NCBI GenBank assembly: GCA_902805555.1
Contig: CADCSY010000024.1
Coordinates: 1 to 64,000 of the forward strand
Reading direction: 5' to 3'
DNA length: 64,000 bases
Origin: an uncultured Acidimicrobiales bacterium
GTDB taxonomy: Bacteria > Actinomycetota > Acidimicrobiia > Acidimicrobiales > CADCSY01
The position numbers were made by a program, and so were the translations under genes. The notes beneath the pieces are model-generated. The model was not told the origin of the DNA. It ran no database searches and saw only the letters and a program-made list of their open reading frames with translations. The stretch's first letter is position 1; each line of letters starts with the position of its first letter. Shown here in pieces: positions 2,055 through 55,390 of the stretch.

Positions 2055-2134
2055 TCACCGCCACCTGCTGCCGGTGCACCCGTGCTTTGCCATCGACCAG
2101 CCGCCGCCTCCCACGGCAGTCGGCTCGGAGCCGG
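2055..2134. repeat. Direct repeat copy 2 (about 80 bp)
   Basis: Second copy of the element described at 1879-1960. It ends about 60 bp before the start codon of the DinB-like gene, so it may lie in that gene's promoter region or leader. Confidence 0.7.
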
Positions 2135-2195
2135 GGGCCGCGGGGGCCACGCCTTTGGGACGGGGGCGGCGGCCGGAGGTGGTAGAGGTTCAGCC

Positions 2196-2822
2196 ATGGA
2201 CCTCTTCGCCGTGCTTGCCGCCGAGCGTCAGTCGCTCGCCGACGAGCTCGACACGCTCGACCCGGCTGCCTGGGCCCGGCCGTCCCTGTGCGCCGGGTGG
2301 TCGAACCACGTGGTCGCCGCCCACCTGAACATGCCGTGGACGGTGCGCCCGCCTGCGTTCGTCCTCGGGCTGGTGAGCGCCCGAGGGAGCATCGACCGGG
2401 CCATCGACCGCTTCGCGCGCCAGACCGCCGATCGCCTCGATCCCCAGGCCTGCGTCGACCTGCTCCGGGCAAACGCGACGAGCCGACGCACGCCCCCCGG
2501 CCTCGGCCCGGAGGCGCCCCTCGCCGACCTGGTCGTCCACGGGGCGGACATCCTGCACCCCCTCGGCAGGTCCCGCTCGGTCTCACCCCAGGCGCTGCGC
2601 AGCGCCCTCACCTTCGTCACCAGCAGGAAGGCTGTCCTGGGCTTTGGTGCACGGTCGATCAGCGACCTCACCGTCGAGGCCACCGACATCGACCTCCGGC
2701 TCGGCTCTGGTCCTGCACTCGTGTCGGGCTCGGCGCTTGCGCTGTGCGGCGCGCTGCTCGGCCGGGCCGACCACCTCTCCGACCTCACCGGCGACGGCGT
2801 CAGCCGCCTGCGGTCCGGCTGA
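2196..2822 (+). CDS. DinB-fold / mycothiol-dependent maleylpyruvate isomerase-like protein
   Basis: The 208-residue protein opens with a helix (DLFAVLAAERQSLADELDTL), followed by WARPSLCAGWSNHVVAAHL at about residues 26-45. The pattern LCAGWSxxxVxAHL is the typical first metal-ligand region of the DinB-like four-helix bundles called the maleylpyruvate isomerase family, many of which use mycothiol as thiol cofactor. A second histidine region, ADLVVHGADIL, follows at about 111-121, and the C-terminal half carries the small extra domain seen in these proteins. The substrate is unknown. The ATG at 2196 follows GGAGG and AGAGG; longer upstream frames run into the repeat. The TGA overlaps the start of the hairpin array downstream. 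Confidence 0.75.
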   Translation: MDLFAVLAAERQSLADELDTLDPAAWARPSLCAGWSNHVVAAHLNMPWTVRPPAFVLGLVSARGSIDRAIDRFARQTADRLDPQACVDLLRANATSRRTPPGLGPEAPLADLVVHGADILHPLGRSRSVSPQALRSALTFVTSRKAVLGFGARSISDLTVEATDIDLRLGSGPALVSGSALALCGALLGRADHLSDLTGDGVSRLRSG

Positions 2823-2892
2823 CCACCCCGGGGCCGACGGGCGCAACCCGCCTGCGCCCGACTCCCTGAGCACGCATCGGCCGAACCGACGG

Positions 2893-3610
2893 CGTGACCC
2901 GCCTCTGGTCCGGTCATCGACGACAGCACGGCCCGCCCACCGGAGTCGGTCAGTGACGACCCGTCCACCGGGTCGGCGACGGCGTCACCGGCCGCCACCG
3001 CTTCGGCCGTGATGCCGATCCGGCGAATGAGCGACGAGGTGATCGGGAGCCGGAAGGCTGCGTGACACGGCGCCGCTCCGGTCACCGACCCAACCCACCC
3101 CGCGACCGTCACCGCATGACCAGCGCCGCTCCGGACACTGACGACCAGTGCGGCAGGTCGAGGACGGGATGAGACGCCTTCGCTCCGGTCACCCGCCACC
3201 GTCGGGCGGATCGACGGCGTGACCGCCCCCCAGCCGGTCGCCGACGCTCACGCCGGCGGGTCGGTGAGGGTGACACGCTTCCCCTCCGGTTCACCGTCCC
3301 ACGGATCTTGCGGCCCGACCACCGCCTGAGCCCCGCCGCTCCGGTCGCTCACCATCCCGCCCGCGCCCTGAAGAGTCGTGACCCGCCCGACGCTTCGGTC
3401 GCTGACCACCAGCCCGCGGCCCGACGACCTCATGACCGTGCTCCGGTCGCTGACGACCATCGGCAGCCGACGCCGCGTGACCCCCCTGGAGCTCCGGTCG
3501 CTGACCGCCAGCCCCTGCGGCCCGACGACCCCGTGACCGCCTGCGCTTCGGTCACCGTCCACCCGACCGCCGGCGTCGAGGAGGCGCCTCCCCCGCCTCC
3601 ACTCCGGTCG
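2893..3610. repeat. Degenerate tandem array of about 52-bp hairpin-like units
   Basis: Two short blocks recur together. Block A (consensus CGTGACC) starts at about 2893, 2983, 3061, 3115, 3168, 3218, 3269, 3325, 3377, 3431, 3476 and 3532. Block B (consensus CCGGTCGCTGACC) starts at 2910, 2968, 3020, 3078, 3131, 3185, 3234, 3286, 3341, 3395, 3443, 3494, 3548 and 3604. B usually lies 16-18 bp after A, and the mean step is about 52.6 bp. In many units A and B can pair, and the pairing changes with the unit: GTGAC/GTCAC at 3061, GGTGA/TCACC at 3269, TGAGC/GCTCA at 3325, GTGACC/GGTCAC at 3532. Unit lengths are not multiples of three, so this is not a protein repeat. Traces of the array reach back to the stop codon at 2822. 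No gene is seen in 2823-3882. Confidence 0.75.
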
Positions 3611-3882
3611 ATGGCGACCCGTCCCGCGACGTCGGCGGGCAGGGAGGCCACGGGGTCGCCGGCGCAGCTGACTGGTTCGACCGTCGCCCTCCGGGGCGAA
3701 TCCGCACGGGTCGATCGAGGGAGCCAGGCGAAGACCAAGATCCACTTGGAGACGACGTGCGTCCGCCTCGCCACGCACGGCGGTGGGTCGCCACCGGACC
3801 TGCTGGAGCGTTCCACGAGCGTTCACCTGCCGGCCAGGGAGGACACATCCCCTCGTGCGCCGCAGTGTGCTTTGCTCTGCCC

Positions 3883-5466
3883 ATGGACCGCAGAACGCTG
3901 CTCAAGGCCGGCGGCGGAGCCCTGGCTCTGTCCGCCCTCGACATGGTGCCCGGCGGACTGATGGTCGCCGAGGCCCACCAGCCGTCGGGGGGGCCCGGCG
4001 CCGCGCCCTTCACCCTCGGGGTGGCGTCCGGGGACCCCCTGCCGAAGAGCGTCGTCCTCTGGACCCGTCTCGCCACCGACCCGTTCGACGGCGGCGCCGG
4101 GACCAGGCAGGTGCACGTGAAGTGGGAGGTCGCAGCGGATGAGCACTTCAGACGGGTCGTGCGCAGGGGCAACACGATGGCGGGGCCCGAGCTCGGCTAC
4201 TCGGTCCACGTCGAGGTGAAGGGCCTGCGGCCGTCGACGACCTACTGGTACCGCTTCAGGTCCAGGGGCGCCATCAGCCCCGTCGGCCGCACCAGGACCG
4301 CCCCCTCGGCCGGGGCATCGCCCCCCTCGCTGCGCTTCGCCTTCGCGTCCTGCCAGCAGTGGCAGCGGGGCTACTACACGGCGTACCGCCACATGGCCGA
4401 GCAGGACCTCGACCTCGTGATCCACCTCGGCGACTACATCTACGAGGGCAACCTCAACAACTTCGAGGTCCGCGCTGCCCCGCCCGAGCCGGTGCGGCCC
4501 GAGCCGATGGACCTCGCCTCCTACCGCAACCGCTACGCGCTCTACAAGCTCGACGCCGACCTGCAGGCGGCGCACGCCGCCTTCCCGTTCCTCGTCACGT
4601 GGGACGACCACGAGGTCGAGAACAACTACGCGAGCGACATCTCCCAGGTCGACGCCGAGCCCGACCAGGACCGGGCCGTGTTCCGCCAGCGCCGGGCTGC
4701 GGCGTACCAGGCCTGGTACGAGCACATGCCCGTCCGCGCCTCCCAGGTCCCGGCCGGGCCCGACCTGCTGCTCTACCGCCGCCTCCGGTTCGGCGACCTC
4801 GCCGAGATCAACATGCTCGACACCCGCCAGTACCGCAGCGACCAGGCCTGCGGCGGCGGCCTGACCCCGCCGTGCGACGAGCTCGTCGACCCGGCCCGCA
4901 CGATCACGGGACCCGAGCAGGAGTCGTGGCTGCTCGACGGGCTCGCGACCTCCCGCTCCCGCTGGAAGGTGCTGGCCCAGCAGGTGTTCATGGCCCAGCT
5001 CGACATCGCCCCGGGCCCCGACGCCCTCCTCAACACCGACGGCTGGGACGGCTACCCCGCCTCTCGCGACCGGTTGTTCGGCTTCATCGCCGACCGGGAG
5101 GTGAGCGACGTGGTCGTGCTGACCGGCGACATCCACACCAGCTGGGTGAACGACCTCAAGGCCGACTTCGCCGACCCTGCGTCGGCCACCCTGGCCACCG
5201 AGTTCGTCGGCACCTCGATCAGCTCGGACGGCGACGGCGACGACAACGGCATCAGCGCCCTGCTGCCGGGGAACCCCCACATCAAGTTCTTCTCCAACCG
5301 GCGCGGCTTCGTCCAGTGCGAGCTCACCCGCCGCGAGTGGCGCACCGACTACCAGGAGGTGCCCTACGTGACCCGACCCGACGCACCCCTCACCACGAGG
5401 GCCAGCTTCGTCGTCGAGTCGGGCCGTCCCGGCGCCGAGCAGGTCGGCGGAGCACCAATCGTCTGA
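3883..5466 (+). CDS. phoD: Secreted alkaline phosphatase D (PhoD-like), Tat-exported
   Basis: A 527-residue metallophosphoesterase of the PhoD family, expected to hydrolyse phosphomono- or diesters outside the membrane. The N-terminus MDRRTLLKAGGGALALSAL is a twin-arginine signal. An immunoglobulin-like PhoD N-terminal domain follows (LGVASGDPLPKSVVLWTRL, about residues 45-63). The catalytic domain shows FASCQQWQ, HLGDYIYEG, TWDDHEVENNYA and, near residue 411, VLTGDIHTSW, which supply the metal-binding Asp, Asn and His residues. The start at 3883 was chosen because it gives the Tat signal; there is no clear ribosome binding site, so the mRNA may be leaderless. It stands alone, with the repeat array upstream. 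Confidence 0.92.
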   Translation: MDRRTLLKAGGGALALSALDMVPGGLMVAEAHQPSGGPGAAPFTLGVASGDPLPKSVVLWTRLATDPFDGGAGTRQVHVKWEVAADEHFRRVVRRGNTMAGPELGYSVHVEVKGLRPSTTYWYRFRSRGAISPVGRTRTAPSAGASPPSLRFAFASCQQWQRGYYTAYRHMAEQDLDLVIHLGDYIYEGNLNNFEVRAAPPEPVRPEPMDLASYRNRYALYKLDADLQAAHAAFPFLVTWDDHEVENNYASDISQVDAEPDQDRAVFRQRRAAAYQAWYEHMPVRASQVPAGPDLLLYRRLRFGDLAEINMLDTRQYRSDQACGGGLTPPCDELVDPARTITGPEQESWLLDGLATSRSRWKVLAQQVFMAQLDIAPGPDALLNTDGWDGYPASRDRLFGFIADREVSDVVVLTGDIHTSWVNDLKADFADPASATLATEFVGTSISSDGDGDDNGISALLPGNPHIKFFSNRRGFVQCELTRREWRTDYQEVPYVTRPDAPLTTRASFVVESGRPGAEQVGGAPIV

Positions 5467-10064: not shown

Positions 10065-10904
10065 TCAGGGGATGATGATGACCTGCTCGGCGAGCAGGTC
10101 CTCGGGCACGAGGATGCCGTTGCGGGCCGCGATGTAGGGCCAGGCGTCGCCGTTGCCGTAGTGCTGGATGGCCATCTTGTAGAGGGTCCCACCCATGCCG
10201 AGGACCTGCTGGATCTCGTGCGCAGCAGCCGGGGCCGGAGCAGCCTGGACCGGAGCAGCCTGGACCGGAGCAGCCTGGACCGGAGCAGCCTGGACCGCAG
10301 CAGCCTGGACCGGAGCAGCCTGGGCTGCGCCGCCCGCCAGGAACTCCCGGACGAGGGGTCGCAGGGCGGGCCACCCGTTGTACGGCGCGTCCCAGTGCCG
10401 CTGCGCCTCACCCGAGGTGAAGGTGTGCCAGGCGCCGAAGCTCGTGCCGGCAGACGAGATGTCGTACATGGCCCTGGCCGCCTGCACCGGGTCGTCGGCC
10501 GTGGCGTCGCTGATCGCCGGCCACCAGTACGAGTTGATCTGGTAGAGGCCACGGTCGGCGTGGGACTGCGACCCGTCCGCTGCGTAGACCCAACCCGGGC
10601 CGGCCACGCCGAGCTGCGTGCCGGCGGGCTGGTTCCCGAACTCGGGGTGCCAGTTCCGCAGACCGCTGTAGAGCGAGGACTCGGCGATGGCGATCGAGGT
10701 GGCGGTGAGCAGCTGCTCCTCGGTGTGGAAGCCGCCCGCGTGGGCGCTCTGGATCGTCTCGGTGATCGAGAGCTGCTCGCCGGCGTACGTCATGTCGGTC
10801 GCCGCGCTGGCCGGGCTCGCACCGACCACGGTCGCCGACACGACCAGCGTCGCCAGCAGCGTCACCGCCGCCGAGGCGCGCTTGAAGAGACGGGGGGATG
10901 GCAT
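10065..10904 (-). CDS. Secreted lysozyme-like protein with LysM-like C-terminus
   Basis: A 279-residue exported protein, probably cell-wall active. A Sec signal ends near ASPASA (residue 34). The domain at about 40-195 has SIAIAESSLYSGLRNW, with a candidate catalytic Glu, and DRGLYQINSYWW, as in soluble lytic transglycosylase-type domains of actinobacteria. An Ala-Pro-Val-Gln-rich linker of 15-bp DNA repeats (10236-10335) leads to a LysM-like segment (TLYKMAIQHYGNGDAWPYIA) at about 240-260. The ATG follows AGGAGAA. The divergent upstream region carries several GTNAC half-sites. Role in division or wall turnover is inferred. Confidence 0.8.
   Translation of the reverse strand: MPSPRLFKRASAAVTLLATLVVSATVVGASPASAATDMTYAGEQLSITETIQSAHAGGFHTEEQLLTATSIAIAESSLYSGLRNWHPEFGNQPAGTQLGVAGPGWVYAADGSQSHADRGLYQINSYWWPAISDATADDPVQAARAMYDISSAGTSFGAWHTFTSGEAQRHWDAPYNGWPALRPLVREFLAGGAAQAAPVQAAAVQAAPVQAAPVQAAPVQAAPAPAAAHEIQQVLGMGGTLYKMAIQHYGNGDAWPYIAARNGILVPEDLLAEQVIIIP
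10236..10335. repeat. 15-bp tandem repeats encoding the AAPVQ linker
   Basis: About six near-identical 15-bp units (CAGCCTGGACCGGAG) encode the repeated Gln-Ala-Ala-Pro-Val linker of the lysozyme-like protein. Being a multiple of three, copy number can change without breaking the frame, so the linker length may vary between strains. Confidence 0.85.
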
Positions 10905-34854: not shown

Positions 34855-34937
34855 CGGGCGCGCCCCCCCGGCCCCCCCGTTCCGGCGGCGGGGGCGGGCA
34901 CCAGGCCGAAGACCGAGCCGCAGCTCGGGTGCATCCC

Positions 34938-34986
34938 GTTCTGGCGGCTGGAACGGGCCTCAGGCCCCCGTGCCAGCCGCCAGAAC
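34938..34986. terminator. Long inverted repeat between MFS and nei genes
   Basis: GTTCTGGCGGCTGG (34938-34951) pairs perfectly with CCAGCCGCCAGAAC (34973-34986) over a 21-base loop. It lies just past the stop of the leftward MFS gene, so it likely ends that transcript. The motif CCGTTCYGGCGG also occurs at about 34877, 34937 and 34996. Confidence 0.6.
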
Positions 34987-35009
34987 CGAGCATCGCCGTT
35001 CCGGCGGGT

Positions 35010-55112: not shown

Positions 55113-55146
55113 GCCCGTCCCGGTCCGCCCGTCGACCGACCGACCC

Positions 55147-55390
55147 GTCCCCGGGGGCGTCGGCGTGGATGCGTCGCGCAGGGGACCCGTCGAGGTGGGC
55201 CCGCCGCGGGACCCCGTCCCGGGGGCGTCGGCGTGGATGCGTCGCGCAGGGGACCCGTCGAGGTGGGGCCGGCGCGAGCCCCGTCCCGGGGGCGTCGGCG
55301 TGCGTTCGTCGGACGCGGGTGCGCCCATCGAGGTGAGGCCGTCGCGAGCCCGTCCCGGGGATGTCGACGTGCGTTCGTCGCACGCCGGGG
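55147..55390. repeat. Tandem repeat of about 68 bp, four copies
   Basis: Units begin at about 55153, 55221, 55288 and 55356 with GGGGGCGTCGGCGTG or a variant, then TGCGTCGCGCAGGGGACCCG and CGAGGTGGG. Copies 1 and 2 are nearly identical; 3 and 4 have diverged. The unit length is not a fixed multiple of three and no coding signal was found. The array fills the gap between the convergent hemG/Y and alpha/beta-hydrolase genes. It shares no sequence with the 52-bp array at 2893-3610. Confidence 0.85.

Follow-up and report, generated by a model that had tools for sequence, protein, structure and literature searches.

A degenerate tandem array between two genes, upstream of phoD, in an uncultured Acidimicrobiales bacterium

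The array and its genomic setting

The source genome is a 2.93-Mb draft in 135 contigs, 91% complete, and the window analysed here is the 64-kb stretch formed by bases 1–64000 of its contig C24. Near the start of the window, a gap of 1060 bp (2823–3882) lies between a TIGR03083-type gene and the ATG at 3883 of a phoD gene. It hosts a tandem array spanning 2887–3634 with 12 recognisable degenerate units, perhaps 14, which begins 65 bp past the stop codon of the upstream gene and lies about 250–1000 bp upstream of the phoD ATG. The features of the locus are as follows:

2082–2822, plus strand: TIGR03083/MDMPI_N gene (mycothiol-dependent maleylpyruvate isomerase-like), upstream of the array (Pfam PF11716, E 5.6e-8; NCBIfam TIGR03083, E 1.3e-19)
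2887–2936, plus strand: unit u1 (E 4.1e-4 in the window when left out of the profile)
2946–3054, plus strand: doubtful slots u2 and u3; the spacing fits, u2 has E 0.26 and u3 was not convincingly found
3055–3579, plus strand: ten consecutive units u4–u13, consensus approximately CGACCGCGTGACCCGCCNCCGCTCCGGTCGCTGACCACCAGCCCGCGGCCCGA (TRF, profile and alignment; eight of ten at E ≤ 0.0053 by leave-one-out)
3580–3634, plus strand: last unit, u14, with the 5′ block lost and the core kept (left-out E 0.0039)
3757–5466, plus strand: PhoD-type alkaline phosphatase gene, downstream of the array (Pfam PF09423, E 7.5e-119)

The phoD open reading frame opens at a GTG at 3757. The nearest phoD relative found is an uncultured Acidimicrobiales MAG with 74% PhoD protein identity, and DNA homology to it begins only at 3876, just before the ATG at 3883; the rest of the DNA upstream of that relative's phoD is unrelated and holds no tandem array. 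No close orthologue of the upstream gene was found in 39 relatives (best 41% identity). The gap 2823–3882 is probably non-coding, because its codon-position G+C is flat in every frame, unlike that of both neighbours and of an ABC gene further on. The lengths of the units do not divide by three, and the evidence supports a preliminary description of this DNA in taking the array as not coding. A terminator and promoter scan gave a single terminator-like site, at 3855–3870, outside the array.

TRF reported a repeat at 3310–3553 with a period of 54, 4.7 copies and a score of 179. Among 300 dinucleotide shuffles of 2823–3882, six gave any match with a period of at least 20, and the top score was 62. 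Head-to-tail copies are thus present above chance, and the periodicity exceeds that of every shuffled sequence. Simple autocorrelation of the gap gives a weak signal (z at most 3.0, for lag 99) because unit length varies; units recur at 45 to 59 bp, with a mean of 53.3–53.4 over the 14 slots, and the core-to-core distances are rather regular, from 48 to 58 bp (mean 53.4, s.d. 2.9 bp). A leave-one-out profile run over the 64-kb window returned ten of 12 units at E ≤ 0.0053 and did not recover u7 (E 3.4) or u8 (E 0.073), while a profile built from u4–u13 also recovered the excluded units u1 (E 9e-5) and u14 (E 0.0096). These results bear out the report of a degenerate array in a gene-free gap, and the strong divergence of the copies supports the earlier judgement that recent slippage did not produce it.

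The finer geometry first ascribed to the array did not hold. Two blocks had been placed at a fixed 16–18 bp from one another, but the TGA-to-CGG distance varies, from about 10 to 17 bp. The spacing had also been likened to five helical turns, but helical phasing was not significant (maximum Rayleigh R 0.63, p 0.082, with the core position set one base early throughout, a constant shift).

Core conservation and block pairing

Conservation within the unit is highest in one block, the approximately 10-bp core CGCTCCGGTC. Its 10-column mean conservation is 0.892 vs. 0.699 for the unit overall, a statistic flattered by the prior dropping of the poor units u2 and u3. Uniform decay simulated on a star tree reached 0.892 in 2 of 100 and 0 of 100 runs, and in duplication-tree simulations, which have a lower mean conservation (0.56–0.60), 4 of 100 and 5 of 100 reached the excess of the core over the mean. 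One of the two conserved blocks originally described is therefore kept better than star-tree uniform decay gives. This is a hint of constraint on CGCTCCGGTC, although the core may be better kept either through weak constraint or because mutation is unevenly distributed.

The two blocks of a unit had further been described as pairing, with pairs that change together. In a 12-unit alignment (A2), which omits u2 and u3 as their register is uncertain, none of six pairs was altered on both sides, and the stem GTGACC/GGTCRC could pair in 79.2% of cells vs. 79.5% with shuffled partners. RNAalifold predicted no pairs on the alignment. The hairpin examples first given rely on different registers in different units, and they are a useful caution: when blocks are matched by eye and the register is left free, their pairing can mimic covariation.

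Folding gave a similar picture. On neither strand did the array as a whole fold better than its shuffles (z 0.15 and –0.75), and the stability of the unit hairpins was slightly above that of shuffles (mean z –0.56 with an s.e. of 0.20, across 14 units that are related to one another). Of three comparisons of own with swapped partners, one was positive: a free-register stem score placed own partners above swapped ones (p 0.029), while hairpin energy gave p 0.19 for 14 units and 0.67 for 11, in a test where the 5′ and 3′ windows overlap in the short units u3 and u11 so that one or two bases are doubled. The alignment count, folding and two of the three swapped-partner tests thus give no support to the co-varying hairpin. 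As a control, a dyad-symmetric repeat of the same genome (A3, 49 copies) had arms that were 81.0% paired vs. 82.1% with shuffled partners; since this repeat is also not above shuffles, a covariation count alone is weak and cannot tell an RNA stem under selection from a DNA site that is symmetric, but it does show that the claimed covariation is not needed. An Rfam scan of the window at gathering thresholds found only a tRNA, at 17–89, and nothing at the array.

Distribution of the array and other repeats

A sequence-only profile search of the source genome found the 12 units at E ≤ 3e-5, followed by scattered weak matches from E 0.0044, and no second copy of the array. In an order-wide profile search, 120 of 148 genomes, the source genome included, gave some match at E ≤ 0.1; matches so widespread may be what is expected of a G+C-rich profile. 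No array was found in the 147 other genomes, which include none from the same genus; among the matches listed, all were isolated, the best having E 2.3e-4. A whole-genome profile search of the nearest phoD relative gave scattered matches only (best E 0.0047). The pattern is therefore absent from the relatives searched, both at the nearest phoD locus and, among the matches listed, across the order, and as far as these genomes reach the array appears specific to its source lineage.

Intergenic tandem arrays are common in the source genome. In 460 kb (the window and 20 further stretches), tandem arrays with a period of 54–85 bp occur at six loci: the focal one, window 55144–55371, and stretches L185, L186, L191 (over a called ORF) and L193, none with a period or position suggesting a repeat protein. 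The array at 55144–55371 has 3.3 copies of 68 bp at 87% matches, better kept than the focal units, and fills the gap between convergent called genes. Elsewhere in the window, a 15-bp tandem repeat at 10224–10323 (AGCAGCCTGGACCGG, 6.7 copies at 95%) has a period that is a multiple of three and is possibly coding, and in the genome of a relative a 126-bp repeat with 5.3 copies (L181, 1671–2333) resembles a repeat-domain protein gene.

The arrays in L186 and L193 are made of copies of a dyad repeat of 53 bp that is dispersed through the genome; it is present in the window at 34936–34988 and reads approximately CGTTCTGGCGGYYRGATC...GATCYRRCCGCCAGTTCG. Further copies in the source genome lie at, among others, C5:18170, C21:27468, C42:23789, C48:4649, C90:27651, C92:44853, C108:11444 and C131:35010. 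A search of the source genome for its exact 43-bp frame, CTGGCGGY-N28-CCGCCAG, gave 40 positions spread over 18 contigs, vs. 0 and 2 for reversed-pattern controls; in 29 relatives the frame occurs 0–2 times each, in matches unlike the consensus. Copies are often in tandem, at 61–84 bp, and in the outer trinucleotides, TTC/AAC, changes on one side are independent of those on the other. At 14 of 17 sampled loci of these arrays, a gene called from third-position G+C ends within about 70 bp of the array, with array limits partly set by hand. The dyad repeat resembles a REP-like or DNA-site family restricted to this lineage, and it is of more interest than the focal array. The focal array was considered as a member and rejected: a 40-copy profile of the dyad repeat gave no match to 2887–3634.

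Origin of the array and competing readings

The spacers of u4–u13 are themselves related, with a mean pairwise local score of 15.0 vs. 11.9 both for G+C-matched segments drawn at random from the window and for shuffled spacers (0 of 500 reach 15.0 in each case). Homology therefore extends over the whole unit and is not limited to the motif sites. Likeness between spacers peaks at a distance of two units (18.25; p 0.025 on permuting their order), mainly owing to u8, u10 and u12, and adjacent units are no more alike than distant ones. Related spacers that are closest two units apart argue for tandem duplication, probably via a dimer of about 105 bp. The divergence of the units had been taken to imply selection on the pattern; this does not follow, since the spacers between the blocks are related too, as an old tandem duplication predicts. 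As judged from these alignments, such homology is the mark of tandem duplication, which would explain the array better than independent sites placed by selection.

We therefore consider the array to be probably an old, decayed intergenic minisatellite. A G+C-rich sequence of about 53 bp downstream of the TIGR03083-type gene would have undergone tandem duplication, in part at least as a dimer of about 105 bp, through slippage or unequal recombination; drift and the gain or loss of bases in the copies would later have given the present 12–14 units. The whole-unit tandem homology, confinement to a single locus, lack of a reading frame and lack of a co-varying structure are observed, and from them we infer how the copies were duplicated and that constraint is lacking over most of the array. 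The recurrence of arrays with periods of 54–85 bp elsewhere in this genome also favours the account. Counting against the minisatellite account are a core kept above uniform decay, the rather regular spacing and the lack of greater likeness between neighbouring units than between distant ones, and against the dimer step that the two-apart signal comes from the spacers, likeness between whole units two apart not being significant (p 0.14).

The strongest rival to this account is a protein-binding array, which we regard as possible but unlikely. Each unit would be a putative site, with the core CGCTCCGGTC flanked by TGACC or CTGACC and bound cooperatively, serving local regulation or chromosome organisation while the spacers drift and the core is selected. 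Core conservation above uniform decay, the recognisability of ten of 12 left-out units, the semi-regular spacing and the position between genes are consistent with such a role; the relatedness of the spacers, the variable block-to-block distance, the absence of helical phasing and the lack of an array at the nearest relative's phoD locus argue against it, as does the search result, with neither a second array nor solitary strong copies in the source genome and no array among the matches listed in relatives. Rather less probable still is the specific form in which a lineage-specific platform, with the core held by selection every ~53 bp as its surroundings drift, would support cooperative binding of a putative protein between the two genes. 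If instead the array were a control region for phosphate-dependent expression of phoD with repeated PHO-box-like sites, its position ahead of phoD would be explained, and some units do read GGTTCACC or GGTCACC, loosely like an actinobacterial PHO-box unit. PHO boxes repeat at about 11 bp, however, vs. 53 bp here, nothing alike precedes the phoD of the 74%-identical relative, and other phoD loci examined gave no significant unit match (best E 0.14 and 1). This reading is highly improbable, and a regulatory link to phoD was dropped given the relative's phoD locus without the array.

It is very unlikely that the locus encodes a structured RNA or an array of transcribed hairpins, for example one at the 3′ end of the upstream gene that affects termination or the stability of its mRNA. 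The start of the array close behind a stop codon, the ability of GTGACC and GGTCRC to pair in most units, the slight excess stability of the unit hairpins and the free-register preference for own partners would fit it; the alignment shows neither changes on both sides of the stem nor pairing above shuffled partners, RNAalifold gave no structure, the energy tests and whole-array folding were negative, and neither a described Rfam family nor a covarying consensus structure was found at the array. The suggestion of a structured RNA thus fares poorly. Descent from a gene for a repeat-containing protein is scarcely credible. Minus-strand ORFs at 3248–3826 and 2228–3199 do cross the array, and VSDRS recurs in one of them, but the unit lengths do not divide by three and neither ORF has a codon-position G+C signal within the gap (0.79/0.64/0.78 in 3248–3826 vs. 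0.69/0.50/0.96 in phoD); a coding repeat was dropped for want of that signal.

Among known systems, the array most resembles bacterial intergenic minisatellites or VNTR loci, of which mycobacterial interspersed repetitive units are an example, in its head-to-tail units of about 50 bp between genes, variable unit length and single locus, but it is far more diverged than the VNTRs used for typing. It shares with REP, BIME and REPIN elements an intergenic position downstream of a gene and short complementary blocks in most units; unlike them it is not dispersed, being confined to one locus, and has no good palindrome and no compensating changes. Tandem clusters of REPs are among the arrangements described in one report (PMC3733652). 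The Y1 transposase (PF01797) had no matches in the source genome, at 91% completeness, and is present in 5 of 14 control genomes. CRISPR arrays likewise have regular repeats with diverged stretches between them, but the focal repeats are far too diverged, their spacers are mutually related and no Rfam match lies at the array. A literature search on intergenic tandem repeats, REP/BIME, MIRU and Acidimicrobiia tandem repeats found nothing on this repeat.

As it stands, the focal array is one more decayed intergenic tandem repeat, of little significance. Should the core be under selection, this would suggest that a little-studied actinobacterial order has an undescribed DNA-binding protein.
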